NCBI RefSeq assembly: GCF_001565895.1
Contig: NZ_LSNE01000006.1
Location: forward strand, 75,803 to 125,403
Length of the DNA: 49,601 bases
Direction of reading: 5' to 3'
DNA from: Paraglaciecola hydrolytica
Lineage (GTDB): Bacteria > Pseudomonadota > Gammaproteobacteria > Enterobacterales > Alteromonadaceae
The notes below the pieces were generated by a model. That model was not told the DNA's origin. It saw only the letters and a program-made list of their open reading frames with translations, and did not search any database. Position 1 is the stretch's first letter. Each line of letters begins with the position of its first letter. Both the position numbers and the translations under genes were made by a program. Positions 8,842-47,126 of this stretch are shown piece after piece.

Positions 8842-9160
8842 CGTTGAATAATCTGTGAGTGATTTTTACATTAATCAATTAAGTATCTACTTGGCGCCAT
8901 CTATTCCCTCATTGGCTTTTTAAATATAACAATCCTGTTTAAATCTATGCGTCACGATAAACGTCATTTTATGTAATTACTAGTCTTGTTTATCCCATGC
9001 TATTTGTCTGGTGGGGATATATTTTTGCCAAAATTTGAGGTGAAATTTTTAGCTATGCATTTGTTTTTTAATATTTTTCGGTTTCTATCTGGTTGAAATT
9101 ATTCTCTCTTTTATTCTTAACGATTTACGTGTTTCTCGCCGCTGTTTTTTACTCCTAACG
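8842..9160. other. AT-rich intergenic region, no gene seen
   Basis: About 320 bases between the solute-binding protein gene and the TetR gene, both on the minus strand. It is AT-rich with several T-runs and would hold the promoter of the solute-binding gene. No open reading frame, convincing hairpin or repeat was found. Confidence 0.5.
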
Positions 9161-9787: not shown

Positions 9788-9917
9788 AGGGCAAGCCTAA
9801 AGTAGCTGTTGATAAATGTCATCTCAAACTCCTTCTTTTGCCACTGCAGTAAATCGGGTAAATGATGGTCAACAGAAATTGTCACCAACATTCCCCGCTT
9901 TACGATTGCCATTAGAC

Positions 9918-10460
9918 TTATTTTACTAAGGGGCTAGCCCACTCAACAATATCTTTACTTAAATCCTTTAGGCACTTTTTAGTTGCACTACAAATAGAGT
10001 AGTTAACACCCAAGTCTAATATATTGCTCGAAGGTGTTAATTCATTCAATACAGCGATGGCACAGGTATGTTTAGCGGTTTGTAGATCTTCTCCTCTGAG
10101 AATGGCCGCCGTCACCTGCACTTTAGGTAAGTTATCTTCAGTTTTAGTACCGAAGCTGAAATCTTTACCCAGCGCAAGTTGTTCAATATCAATGAGTAAT
10201 ACTGGAATAGTGCCATTGTTGACTTTTTCGGTGGTGTTAACCGGCTCCATCGTTAGACCTGATTTCGCACTATCTTTAACCAACAATTCAACTAAGTTTT
10301 TATCAATCTCACAAGGTAGTTCGGCCTGAGCATAGTTATAACCTGGCACATTAAAACCAAAGTTCTGATTGACATAAACTAGCGAGTTTTGTTCGCTGGC
10401 AATTAAAACGGGGGTAAATGCACTTAAGCATATTAGGGTCAGAGGCAATAGTTTATTCAT
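9918..10460 (-). CDS. Secreted protein of unknown function
   Basis: Exported protein of 180 residues that I do not recognise. It starts with a clear signal peptide (MNKLLPLTLICLSAFTPVLIA, cut near ASE). The mature part contains four cysteines (PCEID, HTCAI, YSICSA and KKCLKD) that could form two disulfides. The ATG at 10460 follows TGGAA; an in-frame TTG at 10472 is less likely. The gene is divergent from a CadC/ToxR-like membrane regulator, which may control it. Confidence 0.7.
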   Translation of the reverse strand: MNKLLPLTLICLSAFTPVLIASEQNSLVYVNQNFGFNVPGYNYAQAELPCEIDKNLVELLVKDSAKSGLTMEPVNTTEKVNNGTIPVLLIDIEQLALGKDFSFGTKTEDNLPKVQVTAAILRGEDLQTAKHTCAIAVLNELTPSSNILDLGVNYSICSATKKCLKDLSKDIVEWASPLVK

Positions 10461-31216: not shown

Positions 31217-32059
31217 ATGCGCGATACTGTATTAAATGCCATGACAGTGGATGTAGAGGATTTTTTTCACGTATCTGCTTTTGAGTCTATTATCAAACCA
31301 GAGCAATGGCAGGATTATCAACCGCGAGTTGATACTAATACCAAACGCTTACTGGATCTATTTGCTAAACATAATATTAAGTCGACCTTTTTTGTGCTGG
31401 GTTGGGTGGCTGAACGTTATCCGGAACTCATCAAAGAGATACATAATCAAGGCCACGAGATTGCAAGTCACGGTTATGAACATCGTCGAGCGACAGAGCA
31501 AACTCGCGCAGAGTTTCATGCCGATGTATTGCGTTCTAAAACACATCTTGAAGACCTGCTGGGTGAAAAATTGACAGGATATAGAGCACCCAGTTTTTCT
31601 ATCGGTTACAATAATGAATGGGCGTTTGAGGTATTGGCAGAGTTGGGATTTGCTTATAGTTCGAGTACTTATCCAGTTAAACATGACCTGTATGGCACGC
31701 CAGATTGGCCTAGATTTGCCTATCAACGTAAAGAAGGCATTATTGAAATACCCATTCCTACTCATCGTTTTCTGGGCAGACAAACTCCCATAGGTGGTGG
31801 TGGCTATTTTAGATTGTACCCTTATGCCTTTACTAAATACTTAGTAAAAAGTTATTTGGAAAAAGAACAACAACCTTATTCTTTTTATTTCCACCCTTGG
31901 GAAATAGATGCTGAACAACCCCGCCTTACACAAGCTCCGTTGAAATCCAGATTCAGACATTACATTAATCTAGATAAAACCTATGGCAAGCTTGAGAATC
32001 TTATTCAGGATTTTTCGTGGGGGACCATGAAGGACGTTTATAATATTGCTGCAAAGTAG
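31217..32059 (+). CDS. XrtA-associated polysaccharide deacetylase
   Basis: NodB-type deacetylase of 280 residues that would remove acetyl groups from amino sugars of the exopolysaccharide. The metal and catalytic motifs are visible: TVDVEDFFHV near 10-19, the histidines in QGHEIASHGYEHR (78-90), and YRAPSFSIG near 123. The family variant with VEDFFHV is that of PEP-CTERM/XrtA loci (TIGR03006). No signal peptide is present, as is usual in this variant. It starts 3 bases after the sugar transferase stop and ends in a one-base overlap with the exosortase gene. Confidence 0.92.
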   Translation: MRDTVLNAMTVDVEDFFHVSAFESIIKPEQWQDYQPRVDTNTKRLLDLFAKHNIKSTFFVLGWVAERYPELIKEIHNQGHEIASHGYEHRRATEQTRAEFHADVLRSKTHLEDLLGEKLTGYRAPSFSIGYNNEWAFEVLAELGFAYSSSTYPVKHDLYGTPDWPRFAYQRKEGIIEIPIPTHRFLGRQTPIGGGGYFRLYPYAFTKYLVKSYLEKEQQPYSFYFHPWEIDAEQPRLTQAPLKSRFRHYINLDKTYGKLENLIQDFSWGTMKDVYNIAAK

Positions 32060-33591
32060 TGGAGTCTGAAGTGCAACATAAAACGGATTTTCAGTTCAAT
32101 TTAAAATCTCAGCCACAGCAAGTGGTTTATCTTTTGGCCTTGGTGTTTATCGCATGGATAGCGGTGTTTTGGCAGGGCATTATTACTGCTATTGATATCT
32201 GGCTTATTTCCGACATATTCAATCACTGCTTATTTGTATTACCCGGCGCGTTTTATCTTATCTATTTAAAAAGATCAGAATTGTCTTTTGGTTTAGTCAA
32301 ACCTGCATGGTGGGGATTATTATTCTGTGCAGGCAGCGCCTTACTTTATCTCATTGGCATAGCTGGTGATGTGCAATTGTTTATGCACATTGCAGCCTTC
32401 ACTTTTTTGCCTTTTGCTATTTGGACTTGTGTTGGAAGTACCATAGCTAAAAGAATATTGTTTCCATTGTTTTTTATGCTGTTCTGCATCCCTTTTGGTG
32501 AAGAGTTTGTACCCACCTTACAAAGGATTGCCGCCGATCTTTCAGTAATGATGTTGAATTGGACCACAATACCTGTATTTAGAAGTGGCCTGTATATTGA
32601 GATCCCCCAAGGTCGTTTTTTGGTGGCAGAAGCTTGCTCAGGTATCAGTTTTTTTATTGCATCAGTAGTGATTGGTGCGTTGTATTCCTATCTCAACATA
32701 TATTCAACCAAACGTCGTATCGCTTTTGTCACACTTTCTATCGTAGTACCTATCATTGCTAATGCGGTAAGGGTTTTTGGTATTATCGTTATCGCCCATT
32801 TAAGTAATATGGAACACGCTGTAGGTGCTGATCATCTTATTTATGGTTGGTTCTTTTTTGCTTTTGTGATTATTTTACTGCTGGCGATTGGTGAATTGGT
32901 ACGTGAAAAACAAGCCCCAGTAACGCAAAATAAAACCACTGTTCCTACTTCGTCATTTGGCTCATCGACGCAAAAGGGCACAGTGAATGTGGCTTTGGGT
33001 TTTGTTGTCTTTTATGCCGTGGTATTTGGTTGGTTGCAGCATATTTATGCGCAACAGAACCCAATGGAAAATCCACCGGCTTTGAAAACCTCAGCTTTGC
33101 AAGGTTTGATGATTAATCAACAAACCTCTCAATGGCAGCCTAAGTTTAATGATGCTTTTGAGTCTTTCTCCGCGACCATCGAACTTGAACAACAGCCACT
33201 TGATGTTTTTATTGCTTGGTATCCTAAGGGGCATGGTGAGTTAATTAGCTCCTTGCACCGTTTTTATCAGGAAAAAGATTGGACCTTAGAATCGAGTAGC
33301 CGATATACGCTCAATTCAGAGCTCGAATTGCCCTTAAGTATTATCGTTAGTGGCAGAGGTTATAGGGCGTTGACTTACTGGTATGTCATTGATGGCATGG
33401 TTTTTACTGATAGAAAACTGGCAAAGTTGTATGAAATATATCGCTTAATGTTGGGTAAACATCAAGGTGGTCTTGTTGTCGCTGTTTCTGAAGAAATAGA
33501 GTTGGTGAGTAAAACTCAAGATCTTGAGGCATTTAAACAAAAAGTGCAGAAAACCTATACTTTATTGAACTCAAATTCGCAGTACCCATGA
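32059..33591 (+). CDS. xrtA: Exosortase A (XrtA/EpsH) with C-terminal EpsI domain
   Basis: Membrane transpeptidase-like enzyme of 510 residues, predicted to cleave and anchor PEP-CTERM proteins. The catalytic residues are in place: Cys193 in VAEACSGISF, Arg238 in NAVRVFG and His259 in GADHLIYGW. About eight membrane helices make up the exosortase core. The last 170 residues (LQGLMINQQTSQWQPKFNDA, VFIAWYPKG) are the EpsI-type domain normally fused in exosortase A. The gene starts with GTG at 32059, overlapping the previous stop, or with GTG at 32071, which follows GGAG. No PEP-CTERM substrate is found in the window. Confidence 0.93.
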   Translation: MESEVQHKTDFQFNLKSQPQQVVYLLALVFIAWIAVFWQGIITAIDIWLISDIFNHCLFVLPGAFYLIYLKRSELSFGLVKPAWWGLLFCAGSALLYLIGIAGDVQLFMHIAAFTFLPFAIWTCVGSTIAKRILFPLFFMLFCIPFGEEFVPTLQRIAADLSVMMLNWTTIPVFRSGLYIEIPQGRFLVAEACSGISFFIASVVIGALYSYLNIYSTKRRIAFVTLSIVVPIIANAVRVFGIIVIAHLSNMEHAVGADHLIYGWFFFAFVIILLLAIGELVREKQAPVTQNKTTVPTSSFGSSTQKGTVNVALGFVVFYAVVFGWLQHIYAQQNPMENPPALKTSALQGLMINQQTSQWQPKFNDAFESFSATIELEQQPLDVFIAWYPKGHGELISSLHRFYQEKDWTLESSSRYTLNSELELPLSIIVSGRGYRALTYWYVIDGMVFTDRKLAKLYEIYRLMLGKHQGGLVVAVSEEIELVSKTQDLEAFKQKVQKTYTLLNSNSQYP

Positions 33592-34478
33592 GCCCAGACA
33601 GTTTACACACAAGGCGCTTTGTGCGTGTTATTAATTGGGTCTTGGCTCAATTGCAACAACATGAACTGCGTGGCAAACATCGTTTGTACCAATGGTTATC
33701 GAAACACCACTCAACTAAAGTTATTAGTCATACCTTGGGTGGCAGAGAGTTTGTTGTGCCGGTAGATGAATGGTGTTTTTGGTTAGAATATGGACCACAA
33801 AACTATTATCTGGATGAGTTTATCCCTTTTTTCAATGCTATCAATCAGGTGGAAAAACCTTTCACCTTTTTTGATCTTGGCGCGGATATAGGCACTGTCA
33901 GCGCCTTAGCTAAACAATATTGTCCCAAACTACATAACATCTATGCCTTTGAACCTAATCCGAATTCATTTGAATTGTTGTCGCATAATCTAGGGCAGCT
34001 CGGAAGTAACTATGTATGTGAAAATGCGGCAGTATCTAATATTAATGGCCAGGTTGCATTTCACTCTTCGTCAGCTTCGACTATAGACCACGAAGGTTCT
34101 ATTGATATTAATACGCCGGGCAATACTCAAGTTTATAGTTTGGATCATTGGTTAGCCAGTACAGCAGATTCTAAGGTACTACCTTATGTCGTACTTAAAA
34201 TTGATGTCGAAGGACAAGAATTACAGGTGGTACAAGGGGCCGCTAAGCTTATCGAACAGGCAGAAGTAGTTTTAGTATTATTGGAAATTCACCCTGATGT
34301 ACTGAAACAAACTAAGATCACAGCAGAGCAGCTTTTTGTCGAACTTGAAAAATTAAGAGCTTTTAAGTGGTTTGTACCTAAATTAAATAATCAAATTATC
34401 GACCGTAGTCGTGACTTTTTCGCGCAGTTTCCCTTGCAACAATTTGATATCATTGGCTGTTCCAAGCCTACTGCTTAA
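33588..34478 (+). CDS. FkbM-family methyltransferase
   Basis: Cytosolic enzyme of 296 residues that would O-methylate a sugar. The S-adenosylmethionine site is seen in FFDLGADIGTVSALA (about 94-108) and YAFEPNPNSFELL, with the FkbM-typical VVLKIDVEGQELQVVQGA near 203-220. Its ATG overlaps the exosortase stop by four bases, so it belongs to the same operon. It ends 11 bases inside the convergent beta-helix gene. The sugar target is unknown. Confidence 0.87.
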   Translation: MSPDSLHTRRFVRVINWVLAQLQQHELRGKHRLYQWLSKHHSTKVISHTLGGREFVVPVDEWCFWLEYGPQNYYLDEFIPFFNAINQVEKPFTFFDLGADIGTVSALAKQYCPKLHNIYAFEPNPNSFELLSHNLGQLGSNYVCENAAVSNINGQVAFHSSSASTIDHEGSIDINTPGNTQVYSLDHWLASTADSKVLPYVVLKIDVEGQELQVVQGAAKLIEQAEVVLVLLEIHPDVLKQTKITAEQLFVELEKLRAFKWFVPKLNNQIIDRSRDFFAQFPLQQFDIIGCSKPTA

Positions 34479-35574
34479 TATCGAAACCAAATTGCTGTTG
34501 CTCATGCATCGTGAGTATACGGCTGATATCACTGCTATGTATGTTGTCTTTTAAAGTCGCTTGGCCACCATTTCTTTGGGCTATTTTTTTGTTGCTTAGA
34601 TTATTTTCAATTTTGATGTTAGTGCTCTCTGCGAAGCGATATTCGATACTATTTGGGTAGCTATGAGCAAGGTAAATTCGATTATTAATCACCTGGGTTC
34701 CTTGGCTTTCTTCCAGAATGATCCCTGTGTCGGCATTGGGGTGGCCATGGTGATTATGTACAATTAAATTATTTTCAATAAGACCACCAAAATTAGGACG
34801 TTTAGGCATGCCAAAACCTATACCTCGGTCACAGTTGTAAATAATGTTATTTGTTACTGTGATGTTTTGTGTGTTGTTCCAAAAATGAATCGCATGTTCG
34901 GCAATTTTATTTTCTGGACTGGCAATGCCGCTAAAATAATTGTTTCGAACAATCCAATCTTGGCCTCCATGGGCGTCAATTCCACCAATATAATATTGAG
35001 GTCCAATGCCTGCCGTGTATACAAATTGGCAGTTTTCGACTAAACCACCATCGCTGGCAATTCCTGTATTGCGGTTATAACTCACTTTTACTAGCTGTTC
35101 GTACCCATCTTTAATGATGCAATTGCGCAATATTGGAAAATCAGCATTGGCTTCACCAGCAATCTGAATAATATGATTAGGGCTTTGTTCTAGGGTTATG
35201 CCATCTAAGGTGAAGTAGGGAGCGGCCACCCTGATGATGTTATCTACTCCTTTGGTTTTACGCATACCTTTACCAATAATCTGAGTGGTCTTGGGATCTT
35301 TATTGGCTGATATAAGTGAAATATGCGGTTTTAGTATTTGTAATGTTTGGCCTGTTTCATAACGACCATTTTGTAAGGTGATTTCCACGTGCCCACTTTT
35401 ATTAGCACGTTTAATGGCGGCTAATAATTCAGCCGCAGTACTGACACTTATCTTTTGTTGGGAAGCTAAGGGAAAATTTTGAGCATATGCAATGGAACCA
35501 CAAATACGGATAAAGCTAAGGCATACTATAGCTAATTTTGTACTGCCTTTAATGCCCGAAGACAGTCTATTCAT
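34468..35574 (-). CDS. Exported right-handed beta-helix protein, possible lyase or epimerase
   Basis: Protein of 368 residues with a signal peptide ending near IAYAQN and a long right-handed parallel beta-helix (about 60-345) rich in Asn ladders such as VRNNYF, ITVTNNIIYN, IENNLIVHN and VINNRIY. This fold is used by polysaccharide lyases and epimerases. The segment ISVSTAAELLAAIKRANKSG before the helix resembles the start of PL6-type alginate lyase-like proteins. Catalytic residues could not be assigned. The ATG overlaps the acetyltransferase gene end by 8 bases. It may trim or edit the exopolysaccharide in the periplasm. Confidence 0.8.
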   Translation of the reverse strand: MNRLSSGIKGSTKLAIVCLSFIRICGSIAYAQNFPLASQQKISVSTAAELLAAIKRANKSGHVEITLQNGRYETGQTLQILKPHISLISANKDPKTTQIIGKGMRKTKGVDNIIRVAAPYFTLDGITLEQSPNHIIQIAGEANADFPILRNCIIKDGYEQLVKVSYNRNTGIASDGGLVENCQFVYTAGIGPQYYIGGIDAHGGQDWIVRNNYFSGIASPENKIAEHAIHFWNNTQNITVTNNIIYNCDRGIGFGMPKRPNFGGLIENNLIVHNHHGHPNADTGIILEESQGTQVINNRIYLAHSYPNSIEYRFAESTNIKIENNLSNKKIAQRNGGQATLKDNIHSSDISRILTMHEQQQFGFDIKQ

Positions 35575-36151
35575 TACGCATCTTAATTATTTTTGCGGGA
35601 TTGCCGGCCACTATAGCAAAATCGGGAACATCATTGATCACCACGGCCCCTGCGGCGACCACACATTTTTTACCGATATTGGCCATAATCAATGCGCCAT
35701 TACCAATCCAAGAATCTTCGCCGATAGTAACTTTATTAAAAACGCCACCTTGATCTTTGAGCGCGGTATTTAAGTCTGAAAAATTATGTTGACCTTTACC
35801 ACTCATAATATGTACGCCACTACCTAACAAACAGTTTGCTTCAATCTTACATAAACCAATATTACATTGCGGGCCAATATAGGCTCCATCACTGAGCTCA
35901 GTGCCTTGTTGAGAAAATAAGCTAGCAAAGGAGATGACAGTGTCTTTGCCACAGGAGTCCATGGCAAATTGGTAAAAGGCTAAACGGTAATAATTACCCA
36001 TTTGTCCGGGCAGCAAACTAAGACATTGTGAGGCCCCTGCAAACACATTGTCGCGGTTAAATACTAAGGTAAGTAGCCAATACAACACGAAAAAGGGCAG
36101 AGCCAAGAGTGAAAAAAACAGACGTAATAATAGTTTGAGTTTATTGGTCAC
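35567..36151 (-). CDS. Left-handed beta-helix (hexapeptide) acetyltransferase
   Basis: Protein of 194 residues. A hydrophobic N-terminal segment (LFFSLLALPFFVLYWLLTLVF) probably anchors it to the membrane. The hexapeptide-repeat domain covers about 70-185, with KVTIGEDSWIGNGALIMANI and VVAAGAVVINDVPDFAIVAG and the terminal GNPAKIIK seen in sugar O-acetyltransferases. It would acetylate a sugar of the repeat unit. It starts with GTG at 36151 in a GTGA overlap with the glycosyltransferase gene. Confidence 0.87.
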   Translation of the reverse strand: MTNKLKLLLRLFFSLLALPFFVLYWLLTLVFNRDNVFAGASQCLSLLPGQMGNYYRLAFYQFAMDSCGKDTVISFASLFSQQGTELSDGAYIGPQCNIGLCKIEANCLLGSGVHIMSGKGQHNFSDLNTALKDQGGVFNKVTIGEDSWIGNGALIMANIGKKCVVAAGAVVINDVPDFAIVAGNPAKIIKMRNE

Positions 36152-37362
36152 GTTTTTAATTCCTCAGCGACGAGACTTTTTAAAGGGGCGAGTACACTGT
36201 TCCATGCATAATGAGCTTGAATTATTGCCAATGCATTTTCACTTATATTGGTATATTTAGAGTGATCGTCCATCAACATGGTTAAACAATTGATGTAGTC
36301 GCTCGCTGAGTTGGCAAGTAAAATATCTTGTTGATCACTGCATTTCACCCCTTCTGCACCCATAGACGTGGCAATGACCGGTAAGCCGCTGGCAAAGGCT
36401 TGCAATACCTTGTTTTGTACACCGCGAGCTAGTCTGAATGGCGCAACAAAAATATTAGCGTTGTCGAAGTAGGGTTTTATATCGTCAACAAAACCGGTTA
36501 TTTCAATACCATTTTGACCGTTTAGTTTTTTGATTTTGTCCACGGGATCCATGCCCGCAATGCAAAATGTTGCTTGCGGCCATTTTTTAATAACACTTGG
36601 CCATACATGGTCTACAAACCACATTACCGCATCAATGTTGGGAGCGTAATCCATGACTCCTGCAAATAATAAGCGCGGAGATTGCATATCTCGTGGGGCG
36701 GACGGAGGGAAAAAGCTAGTGGTATCGAGGCCATTTTCAACGGCATGGATGTCAAAAGCTGGGCCATGGATCTGCTGAAATAAATCTACCTCTGCCTGAG
36801 TAATTAATAAACAATGGTCAAATGAGCTTGCGATTTTCTTTTCGAAACGGGCGATGAGTTTTGTTTCTCGTTGATATATATACTTAAGCGGCCATGACGT
36901 TTGTTTGGCATATTGCGCCCATTTATCTGAGTCAACATCCATAAAATCCATCAATAACTGCGGCTTTTTCGCAAGTTTACTGATGACCTTTGAATTAAAT
37001 ACGTATTCGGCCACACTTGAAGCACTGCAATAAATGACATCAATATTGTTATCAACAAGCTGTTTATCGATTTTTTTTTGTAAATCTTGGTGATAAAAAT
37101 TAGCAACACTCAGGGCTTTGCCACTGAACAAACCACTTAATAAACGTAAGAACTTGGGACCAAGTTTACTGTAGCTAATTTGCTGGCAATAACGCTCAGC
37201 TAGAGTGGTAAAAAAAGGTAACTCACTATCATCCTCGTAAGGTGTTGCCAAAAAAATCTTGTGCCCTTGTTCATTTAGATATTTTAAATGATGAAAAGTC
37301 CGGATTTTTTCACCTTTGTTAGGTGGAAAAGGGCAACGTTGCGAAATAATCAATATATTCAT
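36148..37362 (-). CDS. Glycosyltransferase of the XrtA exopolysaccharide system (TIGR03087-like)
   Basis: GT-B fold glycosyltransferase of 404 residues. It begins MNILIISQRCPFPPNKGEKI, the pattern of the PEP-CTERM/XrtA system sugar transferases. The C-terminal nucleotide-sugar domain has LLFAGVMDYAPNIDAVMWF, a VAPFRLARGVQNKVLQAFA motif and GLPVIATSMGAEGV. The ATG at 37362 gives the family N-terminus, though no strong ribosome-binding site precedes it; the frame extends to 37431. It heads a three-gene minus operon with the acetyltransferase and beta-helix genes and is divergent from the next glycosyltransferase. Confidence 0.87.
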   Translation of the reverse strand: MNILIISQRCPFPPNKGEKIRTFHHLKYLNEQGHKIFLATPYEDDSELPFFTTLAERYCQQISYSKLGPKFLRLLSGLFSGKALSVANFYHQDLQKKIDKQLVDNNIDVIYCSASSVAEYVFNSKVISKLAKKPQLLMDFMDVDSDKWAQYAKQTSWPLKYIYQRETKLIARFEKKIASSFDHCLLITQAEVDLFQQIHGPAFDIHAVENGLDTTSFFPPSAPRDMQSPRLLFAGVMDYAPNIDAVMWFVDHVWPSVIKKWPQATFCIAGMDPVDKIKKLNGQNGIEITGFVDDIKPYFDNANIFVAPFRLARGVQNKVLQAFASGLPVIATSMGAEGVKCSDQQDILLANSASDYINCLTMLMDDHSKYTNISENALAIIQAHYAWNSVLAPLKSLVAEELKT

Positions 37363-37677
37363 GGAGTGTGTTGTTAAATCCTTTAAGGCTGCAGTAGCGA
37401 GATAGTACATACAGTTAAACAAATTATGCATTGTTTGGCAGTTTGTTAGGTTTTTATAATACTATTTTTTTACGCTGTTTATCTTAATAATTCTCAGGGC
37501 TTTTGTTCGCTGTTAGTGTGATTAAATTATCAATATAAAATATTTTCGAGTCTATCGGCAGCATGGTACAAGTGTTATGCTGCGATTATATAAATCGTAC
37601 ATAAATTGTATATAAATTAGTTTGTTAGAATCATAAACTTGCTGTGTAAAGTTGGTTCTCTGAAGGATAATAATGTT
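37363..37677. promoter_or_regulatory. Divergent promoter region of the two glycosyltransferase operons
   Basis: This 315-base AT-rich gap separates oppositely oriented glycosyltransferase genes. It contains the dyad GCAGCAT-N12-ATGCTGC (37558-37583) and several AT-rich stretches that could serve as -10 boxes. No reading frame of note is present. Confidence 0.35.
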
Positions 37678-38823
37678 TTGAAAACTTTATTAATAACAGA
37701 AAATTTTCCGCCTAAATCAGGAGGTAGTGGCCGCTGGTTTTGGGAACTCTATTCACGGTTACCCCATACTGAATATTCGGTAGTAGCAGGGCTTTGGCAA
37801 GATACTGAATCCTTTGATGCAAATGCTAATTTAAGCATATCCCGTTACAACTTGAGCTCTACAGAGTGGGGTTTTGCCAGTATTAAAGGGGTCTTATTTT
37901 ATATAAAAACCTTTTGGCATATTCGCAAGCTAATAAAACAACAAAACATTACTAACTTGCATTGTGGGCGCGTATTGCCTGAAGGTGTGATGGCTTGGCT
38001 TATCAATTTAATGACAGGTATTCCCTACTCTTGTTACGTGCACGGTGAAGATTTAGAAACGGCAGCCAGTAGTCGCGAACAACAATTTATTTGTAAACTG
38101 GTTATTAAGCGCGCGACTCAGATCATTTGTAACAGCCAGAATAGCGCAAATTTAGTGGCTAAATTTGGTGAAGCCGCGCGACTTAAGGCTGTGGTATTGC
38201 ACCCTGGAGTGGATAGTAGTCGCTTTGTACCGGCAGAGCCTAATGCACAAACCCGCACCAATCTTGGCTGGCTGGACAAAAAAGTGGTGTTAACCGTTGG
38301 CAGATTGCAAGCGAGGAAAGGTCAGGACATGATGATCCGCGCTTTGCCTGCCATAAAAAAGGAAATTCCTAATATTCTCTATGCGGTAGTCGGCGACGGT
38401 GACTGTTTGCACATGTTGCAAAATCTAGCCTCTGAGCTTGGAGTAGAGGATAACGTACAATTTTTGCGGGAAATCACCGATCAGCAAATGATCCAGTGTT
38501 ATCAGCAATGCGACTTATTTATTTTACCTAATCGCACTATAGGCCAAGATATTGAAGGTTTTGGCATGGTTCTGGTTGAAGCTCAATCATGTGGCAAACC
38601 CGTTATTGCAGGAGATTCTGGTGGTACTCGGGAAACGCTTGTTGAAGGTGAAACGGGTTTAATTATCGACGCGACTAAACCTGAAAGTATCGCCAGTGCA
38701 GTTGCGAATATATTTACAGATGAGCAAAATTTAAAAAAAATGGGCAGTAAAGGTAGAGAGCATGTTGTCCATCGCCTCGACTGGAAAGCCTTGGCACAAA
38801 GTGCAAAAGAGTTATTCGTTTAA
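37678..38823 (+). CDS. GT4-family glycosyltransferase
   Basis: GT-B fold enzyme of 381 residues that adds a sugar to the growing repeat unit. The N-terminus LKTLLITENFPPKSGGSGR is a family signature. The C-terminal domain has VVLTVGRLQARKGQDMMIRA and the EGFGMVLVEAQSCGKPVIAG motif with the two glutamates seven apart. The start is taken as TTG at 37678 after AAGGA, because the frame upstream to 37639 has no support. It is followed by a transglutaminase-like gene 109 bases on. The donor sugar is unknown. Confidence 0.87.
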   Translation: MKTLLITENFPPKSGGSGRWFWELYSRLPHTEYSVVAGLWQDTESFDANANLSISRYNLSSTEWGFASIKGVLFYIKTFWHIRKLIKQQNITNLHCGRVLPEGVMAWLINLMTGIPYSCYVHGEDLETAASSREQQFICKLVIKRATQIICNSQNSANLVAKFGEAARLKAVVLHPGVDSSRFVPAEPNAQTRTNLGWLDKKVVLTVGRLQARKGQDMMIRALPAIKKEIPNILYAVVGDGDCLHMLQNLASELGVEDNVQFLREITDQQMIQCYQQCDLFILPNRTIGQDIEGFGMVLVEAQSCGKPVIAGDSGGTRETLVEGETGLIIDATKPESIASAVANIFTDEQNLKKMGSKGREHVVHRLDWKALAQSAKELFV

Positions 38824-38932
38824 GCAGGATATTGTAAGTGCCAGTAATGTCAGATTCTAATTGAATTTAACTAGTGTGGAATATAATCGACATTTACTTC
38901 TTAACTAAGTGTTTGATATTGTGGGTAAAGGT

Positions 38933-39757
38933 ATGTTGTTTGAGCGTTTAAAACTCAGTTTTTGTTTTATTATTCTTTTAGTAGGATGTTTTCTACTAAT
39001 GGTTAATTTATATGGTTTAAACAGAGACATTCGGGTCGATGATTTTAGCAATCAATATTTGAGGTTCCCCAATGACCAACCTGCTAACTTTAACGATACT
39101 TTGCTCGAATTGATAAGACATCAAAACGAAACTGATATTCAATATTCAACAAGAGTCACCCATGTTGTGGCTAGAGGGATATCCCATGTTGAGTGGTTTG
39201 ATTTTCCTCCACAACAGTTCAATCAGCTTATCCCTATCTGGGAAAATTATTTTTTATACTTTATGGGGGTATTTTCAGGTATTCCTGAATACGAGAGATA
39301 TCACTATGCAAACTACCATAGAAGTTTAAAACGAGGGATTGGCCTTTGTGGTGATGCCTCTATGGTTGTCTCACAGTTGTTAGATGATCAGAATATCAAT
39401 AATAAAATCCTGACCTTTCCAGGGCATGTGGTTGTCGTCGCTACCTTTGAAAATGGCCGCCAGTTTATTTTAGATGCTGATTTTGGAGTTGTTGTCCCCT
39501 TTTCTGTAGCTGAACTATCCTCTCAGAGTGCTGAAATTGCTCAGCTCTACTTGGATGCAGGTTATTCTCATAGTGATTACCAATTTTTTAATAATATGTA
39601 CCAACAAGCTCCAAGGGAATGGAATGGCGTGCAACATTTCATCACTAAGAAATATTATTTTGAAATATTTGCTTATTGGTTAAAGTGGCCTCTGCCAATA
39701 ATAATGATGCTTTTTTCATTAGTTTGTTTAACCAAAATGAAACGAACCAAGAGTTAA
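38933..39757 (+). CDS. Membrane-anchored transglutaminase-like protein
   Basis: Protein of 274 residues with an N-terminal membrane helix (about 9-28), an extracytoplasmic domain, and a second helix near the C-terminus (about 249-268). The central part has the order and spacing of a transglutaminase/papain-like triad: Cys139 in RGIGLCGDASMVV, His165 in FPGHVVVVA and Asp181 or Asp183 in FILDADFGVV. The ATG at 38933 is chosen over GTG at 38909. It sits between a glycosyltransferase and the VanZ-acyltransferase-PHP fusion gene, 76 bases before the latter. The catalytic assignment is motif-based, and the substrate, protein or polysaccharide linkage, is unknown. Confidence 0.7.
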   Translation: MLFERLKLSFCFIILLVGCFLLMVNLYGLNRDIRVDDFSNQYLRFPNDQPANFNDTLLELIRHQNETDIQYSTRVTHVVARGISHVEWFDFPPQQFNQLIPIWENYFLYFMGVFSGIPEYERYHYANYHRSLKRGIGLCGDASMVVSQLLDDQNINNKILTFPGHVVVVATFENGRQFILDADFGVVVPFSVAELSSQSAEIAQLYLDAGYSHSDYQFFNNMYQQAPREWNGVQHFITKKYYFEIFAYWLKWPLPIIMMLFSLVCLTKMKRTKS

Positions 39758-39833: not shown

Positions 39834-42800
39834 ATGCGCAGTTTACTTTATCTCATTATATTTGCGATCATTTATGGATCTTACTATCCATTTAATTTTC
39901 AATTTGCTGATACATCCGAAGTAAGGATCTTAACGTTAATCAATTTTAGCTTTTGGAAAAGCTCCGTCAGCGACCTTATAGCTAATACAGTTCTGTTTAT
40001 TCCTTTTGGGTTTGTCATAAGTAAAGCGTTTCACAGCCAAATTACCATTAAATATGCAAGCCAATATCTGTTGTTTGGGTTTGTTCTCGCCTTCCTGATT
40101 CAAGTTGGTCAAGTATGGACTCCTGAGCGTATCCCGTGGGGGGGAGATGCTATTTGGAATGTAATCGGTTGTTTGTTTGGTATTTTTTTGGCTAAAGTTT
40201 TTAGCTTAAGTCACCTTCACTTCAGTCATACATTATCGCCCTATTTATCGATATGTTTATACCTAGGCCTGGCCTTAGTATTCATAAAACTTGCACCGTA
40301 CTCACCTTCATTAGACTTTGGTGTATTAAAAACCAATCTGAAAAATATTATTGCTCATCCACACATCGATTGGTATTGGACATATGAATCGGTGGTGACA
40401 TGGCTTATTGCCTTTTATTTACTTTCTCAGGCACAACTAAAATGGCTAACTACGGATAAGTTTGTGCTTTTGGTAGTAACCGTACTGAGTGTTAAGTTTT
40501 TAATTATTAACAATAATATTAATATTTCTCAAATTGTTGGAGCATCTATTGCTTTGGTGAGCTGGGGCAGTCTGAAGGCTTTAATCAATAAACAACTGTT
40601 ATTGGTGGCATTCGGCTTTGTCATTGTCTTAAATGGTCTACATCCATTTGAGTTAAAACCCCTTCCCTCGGATTTTCATTGGCTACCTTTTACTGGCTCA
40701 CTCAATGGCAATATTTTATTGAACATTATCGCCATGAGTAAAAAAACAGTTTTCTACATCAGCGCTGTTTGGTTAATGTTTTTGGTGACTAAAAAGCTAC
40801 GCTTCTCGACTATTACAGTCGCCTTAGTCGTTTTTATTGGTGAATATTCTCAACGTTTTGTTACCGATTCAGTTGCTGAAATTACCGATGCTATTCTGGT
40901 CTTTTTTGGTGGCTATATTTTGTCAGTTTTTTTAATAAAATCTGACTCTGATACACCAAATAACACTCAGAGCAACCCTAATTATAATCGTGATTTTAAC
41001 TCTACTCTTGCGCCAGAAAATGTAAATGTCGGTATAAAACAGCGTGATATTAGTGGCCTTGATGGGCTTAGGGCCTGCGCTGCACTGGCGGTCTTTGTTG
41101 TGCACTTTCAACAATTTACTAGTATCGGCGGGACATTAGGGCCTGTTGATTTTGAACGATGGATGGTCAACGGCAATACTGGCGTCGCCTTGTTTTTTGC
41201 CTTGAGTGGTTTTTTATTATCAATGCCTTTTTGGCAAGCCAATAAGGAGCATACATTACCCAATATAAAACATTACTTTATAAAGCGTGCTCTGCGAATT
41301 ATCCCATTATTTTATGTATGTTTTATTTTGTTGATGGCTTTAAAAGGATTTAAAGGAGCTGAAGTCAATTTCAACAATATAGTGAGTCATTTATTTTTTC
41401 TACATAATTTAAAAGACGACCAAGTAATGAGCTTTAACCCGCCATTTTGGACCTTAGCGGTTGAAATGCAGTTTTATCTACTCTTACCACTATTTTTCAT
41501 CTTCATTAAAAAACTTGATCGTAAAAGTGGAACCTTACTATTCATCTTTCTTGTCCCTGTCATTTACATACTTTATAGCTTGTTAATGAGCTGGCTAAGT
41601 GAGTGGCATGATTGGCCAATCAGAATTCCGCTTATTTGGCCTTTTGGAATTGAATTAGAGTCGGTTAACGGCGCGGCATTAAAATATTCAACCATGGCGC
41701 ATTTGCCACACTTTTTGATCGGTGTGGTGGCGGCAAGTTTATTTCTTACCTATCGTAATTCAGAGAAACCAAAGCCAATATTATGCGAAGTACTTTTTTG
41801 GTTGGCGTCTATTAGCGTAGCAATTATTTTATCAACGTCTTTAGACGAGTTATTTCAGCTTAATTACGGGCGCTATAATTTTCCGGTGGTTCCACTTTTA
41901 TTGGGCGTGATATTAGTTACTGCACCCAATTCATTTTTTGCAAAACGACTGCTAGATTTAGCCCTGTTAAAGTGGGTGGGCATCATTTCATATGGTGTTT
42001 ATTTATTTCATTATCCCTTACTCAAAGCAACCAAGAGTTTCTTTGACTTGGCTGGTTTGAATGTCTCAAACCATGCGGTGCTTTATGGCTTATCATCTCT
42101 GATATTGACATTGTTATTTGCACATTTGTCATTTAAATACTTTGAAAGCCCAGTAATGCAGCAATTTACTAAGGAAAGATCTGTGATGTCAGATAAGCCA
42201 ATTCAAAAACCAACGTTGCAAACTGGTGATACTAAAAAAATGCAATTCAGCATCTATAAATTGGGAGTGTTTGCTGTTTTCATGATTGGGATTGTTGGAC
42301 TTTTTTATGTGGTGATGTCTCAGAAAACCACTAAACCGAATCTCATTCCGTGGGCAAGCAATAATGCAAATATCATTTTTGATCATCATACCCACACAAA
42401 ATACTCTGATGGTAGCCTGACATTGGATGAGTTAACTGAATTGGCTTCTATCAGTGGTTGCGACGCATTAGCAATAACTGATCATACCGATAGTCAACGT
42501 TCGTTCAGTCCGGAAAAAATTGAAAAAATTGAAAAGTTACGAAAGCAATACCCTAACTTATTAATCCTAAATGGGGTTGAATTAGGTATGCCAGATTATG
42601 AACAAAGAGAGCACGTTAATATCATCACCACACCTGAATATGAAACGACCTTGTTACCTGAAGTATTTAAAAGATTAAAAGAAAGCAACAAATTGCCAAA
42701 ATCAAGCCGCGACAGGTTTGTTTTGGATAACATTTTCAAAAATGCTGAAGAAACTAATCATTCAATCGCTATCTATAATCACCCCAGTCGAAAAGACCAA

Positions 42801-43523
42801 ACTGAAGATGAAAATTTATCTGACATCAAAAACTGGAATACAAACAGACAAAATATTGAGGGCATCTCAGGCGCTCCTGGTCATCAAAAATCTAAAGATA
42901 TAGGCAGTTATAGAGAGCACTTTAAAACTATTGATAGATGGGATCCTGCGGTAGCTGAGGTAGGTTCAACCTTAGACCAGTTATTAGATGAAGGACTGGA
43001 CGTGTGGGGCGCCATTGCATCATCTGATTATCATAATGAAAAGATGGATTACCCACCTTGTGGCTTCTCCAGAATGCATGTGTCAACCCCAGCAAAAACT
43101 TACGACGGGCTAATGACAGCATTAAAAAACGGCACGTTTTGGGCAAGTCATGGCAAGTTTTTATCAGAGTTTAAATTAGTTGCTGAAATATCTGAAAAAC
43201 AGCTTAGACTTTCGCCGGGAGAAGCGGCAAGTATTGACGCAGGCACAATCGCCTTGATTCAAGTCGAGTTGCAACGAGAAAAAGACTACCTTGGTTTACC
43301 TTTGGATGTTGAATTGGTTACTAATTGTGTAAGTGGAGAACCAGAATTACTGGGAGCTATTAGAGTTCCAGCATTTTCCAATACGGCTGAGGCATTTTTA
43401 CCAATTAACAACAGTGGTAAAGACGCCCAAAGTTGTTATTTACGTAGTAGAGTACAAGTGGAAGCGTCTGAGGGATTAACTTATATGGCATATAGCAACC
43501 ATATTCGGTTTTTACTTAATTGA
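39834..43523 (+). CDS. VanZ-VanZ-acyltransferase 3-PHP hydrolase fusion protein
   Basis: Very large membrane protein of 1229 residues. Residues 1-120 form a VanZ-like domain (DLIANTVLFIPFGFVISK, then VGQVWTPERIPWGGDAIWNV). Residues 255-365 are a second VanZ-like unit (LHPFELKPLPSDFHWLPF, then EYSQRFVTDSVAEITDAIL). Residues 403-775 are an acyltransferase-3 domain (ISGLDGLRACAALAVFVVHF, ALFFALSGFLL, FIKRALRIIPLFYV, NPPFWTLAVEMQFYLLLP). After another membrane helix (about 808-828), residues 846-1110 are a PHP/CehA-type metallohydrolase (FDHHTHTKYSDGSLTLDEL, AITDHTDS, GVELG, IYNHPSR, ASSDYHNE), with a beta-rich end. The ATG at 39834 has a weak site. Acylating and cleaving a polysaccharide or lipid intermediate is inference. 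Confidence 0.9.
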   Translation: MRSLLYLIIFAIIYGSYYPFNFQFADTSEVRILTLINFSFWKSSVSDLIANTVLFIPFGFVISKAFHSQITIKYASQYLLFGFVLAFLIQVGQVWTPERIPWGGDAIWNVIGCLFGIFLAKVFSLSHLHFSHTLSPYLSICLYLGLALVFIKLAPYSPSLDFGVLKTNLKNIIAHPHIDWYWTYESVVTWLIAFYLLSQAQLKWLTTDKFVLLVVTVLSVKFLIINNNINISQIVGASIALVSWGSLKALINKQLLLVAFGFVIVLNGLHPFELKPLPSDFHWLPFTGSLNGNILLNIIAMSKKTVFYISAVWLMFLVTKKLRFSTITVALVVFIGEYSQRFVTDSVAEITDAILVFFGGYILSVFLIKSDSDTPNNTQSNPNYNRDFNSTLAPENVNVGIKQRDISGLDGLRACAALAVFVVHFQQFTSIGGTLGPVDFERWMVNGNTGVALFFALSGFLLSMPFWQANKEHTLPNIKHYFIKRALRIIPLFYVCFILLMALKGFKGAEVNFNNIVSHLFFLHNLKDDQVMSFNPPFWTLAVEMQFYLLLPLFFIFIKKLDRKSGTLLFIFLVPVIYILYSLLMSWLSEWHDWPIRIPLIWPFGIELESVNGAALKYSTMAHLPHFLIGVVAASLFLTYRNSEKPKPILCEVLFWLASISVAIILSTSLDELFQLNYGRYNFPVVPLLLGVILVTAPNSFFAKRLLDLALLKWVGIISYGVYLFHYPLLKATKSFFDLAGLNVSNHAVLYGLSSLILTLLFAHLSFKYFESPVMQQFTKERSVMSDKPIQKPTLQTGDTKKMQFSIYKLGVFAVFMIGIVGLFYVVMSQKTTKPNLIPWASNNANIIFDHHTHTKYSDGSLTLDELTELASISGCDALAITDHTDSQRSFSPEKIEKIEKLRKQYPNLLILNGVELGMPDYEQREHVNIITTPEYETTLLPEVFKRLKESNKLPKSSRDRFVLDNIFKNAEETNHSIAIYNHPSRKDQTEDENLSDIKNWNTNRQNIEGISGAPGHQKSKDIGSYREHFKTIDRWDPAVAEVGSTLDQLLDEGLDVWGAIASSDYHNEKMDYPPCGFSRMHVSTPAKTYDGLMTALKNGTFWASHGKFLSEFKLVAEISEKQLRLSPGEAASIDAGTIALIQVELQREKDYLGLPLDVELVTNCVSGEPELLGAIRVPAFSNTAEAFLPINNSGKDAQSCYLRSRVQVEASEGLTYMAYSNHIRFLLN

Positions 43524-43640: not shown

Positions 43641-44846
43641 TTGAAAACTATAAAAAAAATACTCAAAAAGATGCCTTTTATTAAAGACAATAATAGTGGT
43701 AATGAACTAGGTAGTATTAGACCTACTGATAAGCCTGTTTTTAATACCTTTAACGGTAACGAAATAATTTATAATATATTCTTGCCGACAGTAAAAAAGG
43801 AATATATTTTTGGTGGAATTTATACTGCTCTTTTGTTTTTAAAAGAATTACAAGTTAACCACTGCAAAGTAAAAATAACGGCATTTGACAAGTTTTTATC
43901 TGACGAAGAAAAATTAGAAACAAGTCATTATTTAGCAAAAAAATTGAATATGTCAATTTCGTACTTGGAAATTTTAACGATAGCCGAATATAAAAAAAGT
44001 TCCCCTTCTTTAGGTGAAATATTTATTGGTACAATTTGGTATACAACCATTGTTATTCGCCAACTAATAGACAATAACGATTTTATCCATAAGTCTTATA
44101 TTTATTTTATTCAGGACTTTGAACCTGGTTTTTCACAGTGGTCAGATGATTATGCAGATGCAATAACTAGTTATAAAAAAGGACGTTATATACCAGTATT
44201 TAACTCTACGTTTTTAAAAGATTATTTTGCTGAGCAAGGCTTGATCAATTTTGATACTCATTTTGTTCTTAAACCACAAATACAAACTCAACAGTTAACT
44301 TTACCAACAAAAGTGAACGCTACGCCTAAATTGTTTTTTTACGCTCGACCTAAGCGTCCTAGAAATCTGTTCAAGACAGGAATGCAAGGGCTTATCGATT
44401 GGTTGCACGAAGAGAACCCGGACATTGAAATTTATACCGCAGGCCAGCCTCACGATGACCTTATTTTTGGACGTTGGACCATAAAGAGTCTTGGTAAAAT
44501 GGACGAAAGTGTATATTGGAAAACCTTAAGTCAATATGATATTGGATTGAGCTTAATGCTTTCGCCACACCCTAGTTACCCGCCATTAGAAATGGCTTTG
44601 AGTGGTGTCATGACCGTAACTAATCGATATGCGAATAAGGATTTGGCTGAATTGTCGAATAATTTTGTTTCCTGTGATCTTGATTCTTCTAGTGTCAAAC
44701 AGGCGCTAAAAGAAGCTTATGGAAAATGTAAGCAGCTTGATGAGCGCATAGCAAATGCGAAATTTGATCATGACCCTATGGCTCATTCAATGGAGAAAGT
44801 CGCGCAGGAAATAGTTGAATTGTATGCAGTTAAAAATATAGGATGA
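43641..44846 (+). CDS. WsaF-like glycosyltransferase
   Basis: Glycosyltransferase of 401 residues resembling WsaF, the rhamnosyltransferase of Geobacillus S-layer glycan synthesis. The pattern YFIQDFEPGFSQWSDDYA near 155, the LFFYARPKRPRNLF start of the C-terminal Rossmann domain, and the donor-site motif MLSPHPSYPPLEMALSGVMT near 310 are diagnostic. It starts with TTG at 43641 after TGGAG. It follows the VanZ fusion gene by 117 bases and may be in the same transcript. The rhamnose specificity is inferred. Confidence 0.82.
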   Translation: MKTIKKILKKMPFIKDNNSGNELGSIRPTDKPVFNTFNGNEIIYNIFLPTVKKEYIFGGIYTALLFLKELQVNHCKVKITAFDKFLSDEEKLETSHYLAKKLNMSISYLEILTIAEYKKSSPSLGEIFIGTIWYTTIVIRQLIDNNDFIHKSYIYFIQDFEPGFSQWSDDYADAITSYKKGRYIPVFNSTFLKDYFAEQGLINFDTHFVLKPQIQTQQLTLPTKVNATPKLFFYARPKRPRNLFKTGMQGLIDWLHEENPDIEIYTAGQPHDDLIFGRWTIKSLGKMDESVYWKTLSQYDIGLSLMLSPHPSYPPLEMALSGVMTVTNRYANKDLAELSNNFVSCDLDSSSVKQALKEAYGKCKQLDERIANAKFDHDPMAHSMEKVAQEIVELYAVKNIG

Positions 44847-44953: not shown

Positions 44954-46132
44954 GACTTAATCTGACATTTCTTCTTGAAAAAGAGAGAGTTACCCGTTTT
45001 GATAAAGGTGTCGAATCTTTAAATCAAAACAAACTAAGGTAACTCTCATGTTGCATACTAACAATCCAATCATTAAACACAAAGCAGGCTTAATAAATTT
45101 AGCTGAAGAGCTGGGTAACGTATCCAGAGCCTGTAAAGTAATGGGCGTATCGCGAGATACATTTTATCGTTATCAAGAGTTAGTAGAAGACGGTGGAATT
45201 GATGCGTTAATTAACCAAAGTCGTCGTTCACCTAATTTAAAAAATAGAGTTGATGAAGTGACCGAGCAATCTGTTATTGATTCAGCAATTGAATATCCCG
45301 CCTACGGCCAACATCGCACTAGTAATGAATTACGTAAGAAAGGTGTGTTTGTATCAGGTAGTGGCGTTCGCTCAGTATGGTTGCGTCACAATTTGGAAAA
45401 CTTTAAGAAAAGGCTCAAAGCGCTAGAGGAGAAGGTGACCAATGATGGCATTATCCTCAGCGACGCACAGGTAGCAGCTCTGGAGAAGAAACAACACGAT
45501 GACGAAGCTTGTGGCGAGATAGAAACGCATCATCCTGGCTACCTCGGCTCTCAAGACACGTTCTACGTGGGTAATCTCAAAGGTGTGGGGCGTATCTATC
45601 AGCAAACCTTCGTTGATACCTACAGCAAGATCGCGTTCGCTAAACTCTACACGACCAAAACACCAATTACAGCGGCGGACATATTGAATGACAAAGTATT
45701 ACCTTACTTCGAGCATCATGACCTCCCTATGCTGCGTATATTGACCGATAGGGGTACAGAATATTGTGGTCGAGTCGATCACCATGATTACCAGTTATAT
45801 CTCGCTATCAATGATATTGACCACACCAAAACGAAGGCCATGTCGCCACAAACAAATGGGATATGTGAACGGTTCCATAAGACGATCCTAAACGAGTTTT
45901 ATCAAATCACATTTAGGAAAAAGCTCTATTCGACGATGGAGGAATTACAAAAAGATCTGGACGACTGGATGGATTCCTATAACAATCATCGGACTCATCA
46001 GGGGAAAGTGTGCTGCGGACGAACTCCGTATGAAACATTGCTGGATGGGAAAACGGTTTGGGCAGAAAAGAATTTAGCTCAAATCTAAACTGACAGCACC
46101 ATTTGAAAAATGGGTAACTGTCAGATCAAGTC
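44954..46132 (+). mobile_element. IS481-family insertion sequence, about 1.18 kb
   Basis: The transposase gene is bounded by inverted repeats. The left end GACTTAATCTGACA (44954-44967) and the right end, which reads TGTCAGATCAAGTC at 46119-46132, match at 13 of 14 positions. Inside the right end lies a smaller CTGACAG...CTGTCAG dyad. No clear target duplication was found. The nested outer repeat at 44901-46155 makes the exact ends uncertain. Confidence 0.65.
45048..46088 (+). CDS. IS481-family transposase
   Basis: DDE transposase of 346 residues. The N-terminal helix-turn-helix has ELGNVSRACKVMGVSRDTFY and the integrase core shows QTFVDTYSKIAFAKLY (first Asp), ILTDRGTEYCG (second Asp) and TNGICERFHKTILNEFY (Glu). 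The gene has an intact frame with no stop or frameshift, ends in QI, and sits inside terminal inverted repeats. The ATG follows AAGGTAACTC. It may therefore still be active. It does not interrupt a recognisable gene, since both neighbours are complete. Confidence 0.93.
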   Translation: MLHTNNPIIKHKAGLINLAEELGNVSRACKVMGVSRDTFYRYQELVEDGGIDALINQSRRSPNLKNRVDEVTEQSVIDSAIEYPAYGQHRTSNELRKKGVFVSGSGVRSVWLRHNLENFKKRLKALEEKVTNDGIILSDAQVAALEKKQHDDEACGEIETHHPGYLGSQDTFYVGNLKGVGRIYQQTFVDTYSKIAFAKLYTTKTPITAADILNDKVLPYFEHHDLPMLRILTDRGTEYCGRVDHHDYQLYLAINDIDHTKTKAMSPQTNGICERFHKTILNEFYQITFRKKLYSTMEELQKDLDDWMDSYNNHRTHQGKVCCGRTPYETLLDGKTVWAEKNLAQI

Positions 46133-46265: not shown

Positions 46266-47126
46266 TTATACATAAAGTTTTTTATAATTTTGTTCTACGT
46301 TGTATTTAATCATTAGTTTTTCAACATAATTCAAACTGTTTTGAATTCGAGTAGAACCGATTTTATTTTTCAAAATACTTGGATCGATTTCTATCCCTAA
46401 ATAAGTATTTATTGTGTCTAATACGGATAATTTATTCCCAACCAGATCTTCATATTTTATCAATACACCATCTACTTCTTGGTAAACATCAACAAAATCA
46501 TTAACCAACATATTCCAGTGCCGACTAAACGATAATGGGTTATAAACTCTTTGAATTGGCCAGCGTGCAAACCAAGATGTTCTAATTGCTTTGAATGAGC
46601 TATATGACTGATAAGGGTCTCTGACTAAAAAGACAAATTTTGCATTGGGATATAACCATTTTAAATATCGAGCTTCTTTCTTCCCCCAACGAACCTCTTT
46701 CACTCCCCAACGCATATTTTTTTCTTTAGTAGATAAATTAAATAAGGTGTCGAAAAAACTACGATGTGACTTTTTTAATGTTTCAAGACGGGGATATAAA
46801 TTTGCTACCCATTTGTCTGATAGGTAATTTACATCTTCTTCGTTTAGGTATGATGTTTTTGGTGGCCAATAGTCTGAAAAATGAATTAAAGACTCTGACA
46901 TACTCTCAACGATATTGGATTTATCAAAAGGTTCACCCCACATTAAAATATCTTCTGAAGAGAGAACCAAGCGCTGTAGCAAAGTAGAGCCTGAACGCCA
47001 ACCTGCGGAAAAAATAAAAATAGGTACAATAGGATCTGAAAGTGCTTTTTCCGGATTGATATTTTTTAAATAACTTAAATCGCTATTTTTTTTAAACCAC
47101 TTTTGTTCTTGTCGATAACGAAGCAT
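46266..47126 (-). CDS. Sulfotransferase-family protein
   Basis: Enzyme of 286 residues that would transfer sulfate from PAPS to a polysaccharide or other acceptor. The 5-prime phosphosulfate loop is seen in FSAGWRSGSTLLQRLV (about 39-54), and the 3-prime phosphate-binding motif in FVFLVRDPYQSYSSF (about 161-175). The C-terminal part has the IKYEDLVGNK acceptor-side motif near 225. The ATG at 47126 has only a distant GGAA. It is on the opposite strand to its neighbours. Sulfated exopolysaccharides are common in marine bacteria, so a role in this locus is likely but not proven. Confidence 0.87.
   Translation of the reverse strand: MLRYRQEQKWFKKNSDLSYLKNINPEKALSDPIVPIFIFSAGWRSGSTLLQRLVLSSEDILMWGEPFDKSNIVESMSESLIHFSDYWPPKTSYLNEEDVNYLSDKWVANLYPRLETLKKSHRSFFDTLFNLSTKEKNMRWGVKEVRWGKKEARYLKWLYPNAKFVFLVRDPYQSYSSFKAIRTSWFARWPIQRVYNPLSFSRHWNMLVNDFVDVYQEVDGVLIKYEDLVGNKLSVLDTINTYLGIEIDPSILKNKIGSTRIQNSLNYVEKLMIKYNVEQNYKKLYV

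Follow-up and report, generated by a model that had tools for sequence, protein, structure and literature searches.

The window analysed here, a stretch of 49,601 nucleotides from Paraglaciecola hydrolytica (contig NZ_LSNE01000006.1), contains a single open reading frame of 1229 codons (39834–43523, plus strand) within an XrtA exosortase locus. Its product consists of an array of VanZ/Lipocone units, an acyltransferase-3 (AT3) domain, an additional transmembrane helix, a PHP metallohydrolase domain and a C-terminal β-sandwich. Comparison with relatives indicates that the membrane modules of these proteins, AT3 among them, are interchangeable, and that the core couple is a Lipocone domain and a periplasmic hydrolase-like domain.

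The original prediction described this protein as a four-part fusion of VanZ, VanZ, acyltransferase 3 and PHP, and our analysis confirms that architecture. Pfam detects VanZ, Acyl_transf_3 and PHP, all over cut-off, and the second VanZ is supported by profile comparison with hhalign. Precomputed Pfam annotation shows VanZ, AT3 and PHP together in 29 of 48 database sequences, the window's own included; the others comprise 16 with VanZ and PHP but no AT3, 2 with AT3 and PHP only, and 1 with VanZ and AT3 but no PHP. Among 295 sampled genomes of the family, at least six carry the fusion in one frame (G000, G053, G065, G088, G116 and G140); at most two candidates were scored per genome, and the counts are lower bounds. 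A seventh (G179) has a split version, in which a VanZ-AT3 protein of 821 amino acids and a PHP protein of 440 are encoded by genes overlapping by four bases, with the split point near residue 790. Had homologues always been split at about residue 780, the frame would have been suspect; instead, one of these seven genomes has a split version, and same-length relatives occur on many contigs and in several genomes, which rules out an assembly artefact or frameshift. Two relatives come from the same genus, one in locus L001 and one from Paraglaciecola aquimarina (P0046). No match was found in plasmid records. Counting the window protein, 28 full-length sequences share 193 invariant positions.

Pfam places VanZ at residues 6–123 with 42.5 bits, against a gathering cut-off of 30.1. 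In this first unit (residues 4–125; 39843–40208, plus strand), N51, Q90, Q93, R99, D105 and N109 are invariant in 28/28 sequences. N51 corresponds to the Asn in helix 2 (H2) that is a feature of VanZ-1, the helix being assigned in this analysis. The second VanZ, predicted at residues 255–365, has no Pfam match in the window protein. Profile comparison of residues 1–126 with 253–369 nevertheless gave an hhalign probability of 94.9 (E 4.4e-8), and the invariant residues likewise identify residues 253–369 (40590–40940, plus strand) as the last VanZ-like unit. The ExxQ motif of H3 reads Q90xxQ93 in unit 1 and E337xxQ340 in the last unit, which also retains D352 and has lost the Asn of H4. The stretch between the two (residues 133–250; 40230–40583, plus strand), assigned from its position and four hydrophobic segments only, probably represents a third VanZ unit that has degenerated; some relatives show three, with Pfam finding three VanZ stretches in L094, L099 and L096 and hhalign matching three units in L094, L099 and L106. 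By itself, the middle stretch gave hhalign probabilities of 0.8% against unit 1 and 1.2% against the last unit, and Pfam detects no VanZ in the middle stretch of the window protein or of L004.

The AT3 domain (residues 407–763; 41052–42122, plus strand) matches Acyl_transf_3 (PF01757) with 124.7 bits against a cut-off of 31. It comprises ten hydrophobic segments, consistent with the ten transmembrane helices of AT3 proteins, and has the TmAT fold, its structure model matching HGSNAT. R413-X10-H424 and R485xxR488 are invariant in 28/28 sequences; R-X10-H in the first transmembrane helix and RXXR in the third are known AT3 motifs, according to the available part of PMC9833829.

A single hydrophobic helix (residues 810–828; 42261–42317, plus strand) separates AT3 from PHP. 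All 34 parsed PHP-bearing sequences have a hydrophobic stretch preceding PHP, with a lowest mean hydropathy of 1.49, whereas in seven VanZ-AT3 proteins with other tails the stretch is weaker in every case (maximum 1.32). This parse missed P0030 by its PHP pattern and left out proteins not matching the AT3 pattern; P0006 and P0059 have a long interval between these domains, with more than one helix or region. AT3 domains have both termini in the cytoplasm (PMC9833829, same part), so an extra helix would carry what follows to the other face. Hence PHP, whose side of the membrane the original prediction left open, should lie in the periplasm, the helix being predicted from hydropathy only. C876 and C1076, retained in every sequence having the position, would fit a periplasmic disulphide.

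Pfam PHP (PF02811) covers residues 850–932 with 35.7 bits against a cut-off of 26.4, and the PHP fold is present in the structure model; the domain as a whole spans residues 843–1108 (42360–43157, plus strand). The window protein has all nine putative ligands of what we take to be the PHP metal-binding set (HxH, D, H, E, H, H, DxH), namely H852, H854, D859, H884, E916, H927, H983, D1065 and H1067. All nine are retained in 63 of 66 sequences of the fused, split or lone forms, a set in which some genes appear twice; P0006, P0051 and P0058 do not retain them all, P0058 being a fragment in this region. NCBIfam CehA/McbA metallohydrolase (NF038032) matches residues 849–1163 with 60.8 bits, under its curated cut-off of 80. 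In the model, the PHP fold is followed by a β-sandwich (approximately residues 1109–1229; 43158–43520, plus strand) that contains C1165 and C1201.

The original prediction treated AT3 and PHP as a couple. These data argue against a conserved one, since each occurs without the other. PHP is found with a different membrane region, module X, in place of AT3 (the P0032 type and L030); with no middle module in P0044, from its sequence, and in P0043, judged by length and Pfam; and as a lone gene in L087, directly before a gene for a VanZ array with a heparinase domain. Conversely, VanZ-AT3 lacks PHP in P0048, P0060–P0062 and P0064–P0066 (P0063 is a fragment). One genome of the window's genus, G226, carries the X type, and P0006, read by eye, combines AT3 with X in a single chain.

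Six X regions from loci align and share the invariant motifs PxNxxEL, ESxxDxxG and TDNxxEL; no Pfam family scores over cut-off for X in P0032, P0042, L033, L094 or L099. We considered a Wzy-like polymerase for X and rejected it, as hhalign of X (A8) against L093 gave a probability of 0.3%. A Foldseek search with a VanZ-X-PHP model (weak, with a mean predicted local distance difference test score of 71.6) returned mainly PHP and β-sandwich matches and none tied to X, which does not imply a new fold. In the tails of PHP-less VanZ-AT3 proteins, one of two gave a weak RHH_4 match (E 0.012, under cut-off), which we did not use.

The hydrolase-like position is also variable. Of 20 fetched regions, 7 (L087–L091, L095 and L098), from other families of the class, combine the array with a heparinase II/III-like region, identified by BLAST to P0068, and two (L092 and L097) have the order array, X and β-helix, as does L033. 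In L094 (G230) an array-X gene is followed by a β-helix relative as the adjacent gene; in L099 it is followed by a gene for a YfiM-like protein (orf 5, a YfiM-like domain without PHP). Stand-alone VanZ arrays of ∼390–500 amino acids occur in L100–L106. For the long partner regions of L093 and L096, the one clue to identity is a sub-threshold match to Wzy_C in L093, where the later part of a 1131-residue VanZ-array protein (6677–10069, minus strand) scores 25.5 bits for this O-antigen ligase family against a cut-off of 31.7.

A second class of PHP proteins is encoded in at least nine family genomes by frames of 836–882 codons, the C-terminal half being a related PHP domain. A stretch of the N-terminal half matches E. 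coli YfiM (hhalign probability 95.5, E 1.5e-8, 46% identity over 54 columns). DUF2279 matches it below cut-off in five of eight sequences (best 17.8 versus 28.6 bits) and not at all in three. YfiM/DUF2279 is a Lipocone family, as described in the available text of PMC12419801; direct profile comparison of the YfiM-like domain with the VanZ array gave no similarity. In seven of the nine genomes (not G189 or G065) the gene shares a contig with XrtA at a distance of at most 27 kb. It adjoins TIGR03087 in L036 and L037; the fusion has the same neighbour in L027 and L028. Two distinct kinds of fusion between PHP and Lipocone, VanZ-array-PHP and YfiM-PHP, thus exist in the same type of locus. The nine ligands are intact in eight of ten YfiM-PHP sequences, or seven of eight distinct genes; the exception is a G032 gene, fetched twice. 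Of 46 protein-database matches to this class, 29 include PHP, with lengths of 817–857 amino acids. The YfiM-like half also occurs alone, including in the window's own genome, where a relative in a 430-codon frame without PHP (G000:C3:991922-993202) has one stop inside the matched stretch. Six further proteins (P0106–P0109, P0111 and P0112, the last from Botrimarina) match part of the YfiM-like/PHP profile and contain a matrixin domain (PF00413).

The two halves of the fusion have diverged unequally. Between the window group and X types, identity is 28–34% for VanZ and 50–69% for PHP (78 pairs); between the window group and other AT3 types, it is 33–46% for VanZ and 38–52% for PHP (210 pairs). 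X sequences P0045 and P0047 are left out of the pair counts. P0009, an AT3 type, has a PHP domain closer to those of X types (59% identity to P0032). These comparisons suggest that the membrane and PHP halves have been exchanged or evolve at very different rates; we claim only the unequal divergence. Trees were built from 44 of 59 sequences, 15 near-copies being left out. Constraining X to one clade in the PHP tree gave p 0.115 (44 sequences), and X already forms one clade once four long or odd sequences are dropped; in the VanZ tree, joining X to the window group gave p 0.0386 (44 sequences) and 0.226 (40 sequences). As these tests do not separate exchange from rate difference, we reject tree conflict as proof of module exchange.

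A match to TIGR03109 (308.7 bits) identifies XrtA, with an EpsI region, at 32059–33591 (plus strand), on the same contig as the fusion gene, in agreement with the predicted XrtA locus. The locus is of the XrtA/PEP-CTERM exopolysaccharide type, with genes for an EpsB-type transferase, a deacetylase, chain-length, export and kinase functions, a TIGR03087 glycosyltransferase and other glycosyltransferases. Fused or split relatives share a contig with XrtA, at a distance of no more than 33 kb, in six of seven family genomes (2.7–6.9 kb in five and 32.7 kb in G053). An association with XrtA loci thus holds for most of these genomes; that it holds always does not, as G065 has the fusion on one contig and XrtA on another.

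We searched for the VanZ array alone in the 295 family genomes and in a sample of 369 genomes from the class. With up to six candidates per family genome and five per class genome, these counts too are lower bounds. At least 19 family genomes match, 12 over the whole array and seven partially and weakly; all 19 have XrtA, compared with 185 of 276 others (Fisher p 0.0012). In the class sample, at least 36 genomes match, 13 over the whole array, and exosortase is present in 30 of the 36 versus 86 of 333 others (Fisher p 1.6e-11), corresponding to 11 of 13 whole-array genomes (p 2.5e-5) and 19 of 23 with partial matches. One caveat here is that these statistics ignore the kinship of genomes.

We propose, with somewhat less than even confidence, that the fusion protein belongs to an XrtA-type exopolysaccharide pathway as an enzyme of the inner membrane, acting at the periplasmic face on a lipid-linked or nascent glycan. 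AT3 would take an acyl group from acyl-CoA and transfer it through the membrane onto the glycan. The VanZ unit would handle the polyprenyl-phosphate end of the carrier-bound glycan, cleaving or transferring at the phosphoester; phosphoester cleavage or transfer is proposed for the Lipocone superfamily in the available portion of PMC12419801. PHP would hydrolyse an ester or phosphoester on the product. These reactions are hypothetical. In favour of the proposal are the conserved VanZ core, AT3 motifs and PHP ligands, the hydrophobic stretch ahead of PHP, the retained C876 and C1076, the joining of PHP to Lipocone in two ways and of VanZ arrays to heparinase II/III-like and β-helix domains, and the enrichment of the array in genomes with exosortase. 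The coupled modify-and-cleave step of the original prediction, on a lipid-linked or surface glycan, is accordingly retained in part: a role on a glycan is likely, whereas coupling of the acylase to PHP is only partly supported.

Several observations weigh against this proposal. We know of no VanZ protein with a demonstrated reaction, and the VanZ-1 signature of unit 1 is incomplete: its H3 Glu is replaced by Gln (Q90), and of the VanZ-1 motif DxDDxxxN in H4 it has D105 and N109 only, both invariant. P0006, P0051 and the soluble protein of G032 have lost PHP ligands. Two of the seven tails other than PHP (1.31 and 1.32) exceed the loose hydropathy limit of 1.2, making the topology contrast a matter of degree. 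XrtA itself is widespread in the family, being detected in 204 of 295 genomes at E 1e-40 and in 147 with scores over cut-off, and G065 separates it from the fusion. The 30 class genomes with both array and exosortase have them on a shared contig in 16 and on different contigs in 14, the assemblies often being fragmented; only 9 of the 30 pairs lie within 40 kb, and two are ∼1 Mb apart. Finally, a polymerase/ligase-like gene with a sub-cut-off TIGR03097 match lies 13.2 kb past the end of the fusion gene, leaving a need for VanZ in glycan release unsupported. This match, at C6:132545, is ∼7 kb beyond the end of the window, and Wzy_C scores over cut-off there. Replacement of such a gene by the VanZ fusion was considered and is not supported, as TIGR03097 is matched (E 1e-10) in 30 of the 32 genomes chosen, over cut-off in eight; the two without a match in this set are G032 and the fusion-bearing G065.

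CehA-type PHP enzymes hydrolyse ester-like bonds, and PHP could be a substitute for SGNH that receives or edits the acyl group delivered by AT3, giving an enzyme of regulated acylation and deacylation with VanZ as a scaffold. The layout is that of OafA, OafB and OatA, as far as PMC9558356 and PMC9833829 were available. Yet PHP occurs without AT3 in X types, P0044, P0043 (by annotation), YfiM-PHP proteins and the lone gene, and VanZ-AT3 exists without PHP; we consider such a role unlikely. Equally improbable, in our view, is a PHP domain equivalent to the heparinase II/III-like and β-helix domains, with depolymerase or esterase action on the backbone of the polysaccharide or on its decorations. 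Relatives do place a heparinase II/III-like (P0068, L087–L091, L095 and L098) or β-helix domain (L033, L092 and L097) at the C-terminal position, and the array and β-helix relative of L094 are adjacent genes. However, the PHP structures matched by the model include phosphoesterases, nucleases and polymerase domains, and the presence of PHP beside heparinase in L087 indicates that the two are not plain alternatives. Least credible is mere co-expression of independent exopolysaccharide-tailoring activities with no common substrate, which would suit the recombination and occasional splitting (G179) of the parts, the AT3/X swap and the very unequal divergence of the VanZ and PHP halves between types, but not the joining of Lipocone to PHP in two forms with similar placement in XrtA loci.

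The proposed periplasmic-face enzyme can be extended, more speculatively and with a rather low likelihood, to a dedicated modular machine carried by exosortase loci. In it, a Lipocone domain (VanZ array or YfiM-like) and then a periplasmic PHP, heparinase-like or β-helix domain would act in sequence on polyprenyl-phosphate-linked exopolysaccharide: Lipocone would cut or transfer the glycan at the lipid phosphate, the second domain would finish the end or chain so released, with AT3 or X modifying it en route. The parts, their motifs, their context and their modularity are observed; sequential action on one lipid-linked glycan is hypothetical. If such a machine exists, VanZ gains a defined reaction and PHP a carbohydrate-active role. 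To our knowledge, little has been established about the late steps in exosortase-linked pathways for exopolysaccharide. Tying VanZ/Lipocone to defined periplasmic domains provides a concrete substrate space, and a single gene with separable domains and natural split versions offers a genetic handle. PHP also joins the short list of domains attached to AT3 acylases.

Several neighbours of the fusion gene recur in other loci. Directly upstream is orf282 (38909–39757, plus strand), encoding a membrane-anchored protein that appears transglutaminase-like by eye: N- and C-terminal hydrophobic segments flank a region with Cys147, His173 and Asp189, and the match to the DUF553 transglutaminase-like family is under cut-off (E 0.013). 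It has relatives in L001, L030 and L037 (47%). An orf282 gene is the direct upstream neighbour in the window, in L001 and in the X-type L030, which fits replacement in place. Further upstream on the same strand is a GT4-type glycosyltransferase gene (37639–38823), with no family over cut-off, preceded by the TIGR03087 XrtA-system glycosyltransferase (36148–37431, minus strand), a family that lies beside or near the PHP-bearing gene in several loci. A β-helix protein gene (34468–35574, minus strand) has relatives in L001, L031, L037 and L038. Downstream are a WsaF-like glycosyltransferase (43641–44846, plus strand), an IS481-family transposase within the exopolysaccharide locus (45048–46088, plus strand) and a sulfotransferase-family gene (46266–47126, minus strand). 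Given the last of these, the polymer may be sulphated.

The original prediction knew of no described protein with the order VanZ, VanZ, AT3, PHP. That agrees with the open-licence PubMed Central (PMC) literature, the scope of our search, where neither the architecture nor the mix-and-match family was found described among the matches listed. The available parts of the AT3 articles PMC9558356, PMC12423673 and PMC9833829 contain no mention of VanZ or PHP, and that of PMC1569441 gave no match to VanZ, acyltransferase or PHP. The accessible main text of PMC12419801 (Burroughs, Nicastro and Aravind, 2025) does not mention heparinase, AT3, OafA, exosortase or PEP-CTERM.

The Lipocone fusions of PMC12419801 are similar in that VanZ-1 is duplicated with an inactive or degenerate second copy, VanZ is joined to soluble or membrane modules, and there are gene links to exopolysaccharide. 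They differ in that the sole PHP mention in the available text is of a separate gene beside YfiM-1, and its acyltransferases are not AT3. CehA/McbA-like PHP hydrolases, such as BVU_3505 (PDB 3e38), also differ: the fusion scores under the NF038032 cut-off and is membrane-tethered. AT3-SGNH proteins (OafA, OafB and OatA) share with the fusion a ten-helix AT3 domain, R-X10-H and RXXR, an eleventh helix and a periplasmic hydrolase-type domain, to judge from the available parts of PMC9558356 and PMC9833829. Here, however, AT3 follows a VanZ array, and the C terminus has PHP with a β-sandwich instead of SGNH, a family that is absent from the Pfam scan of the fusion. A further close system is the XrtA-locus ‘PHP domain-containing protein’ of ∼840 amino acids, the YfiM-like plus PHP form. 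It has one N-terminal anchor and a YfiM-like Lipocone domain rather than a VanZ-AT3 membrane half; like the fusion, it is encoded in XrtA loci, beside TIGR03087 in L036 and L037, and the PHP domains of the two are 30–39% identical.

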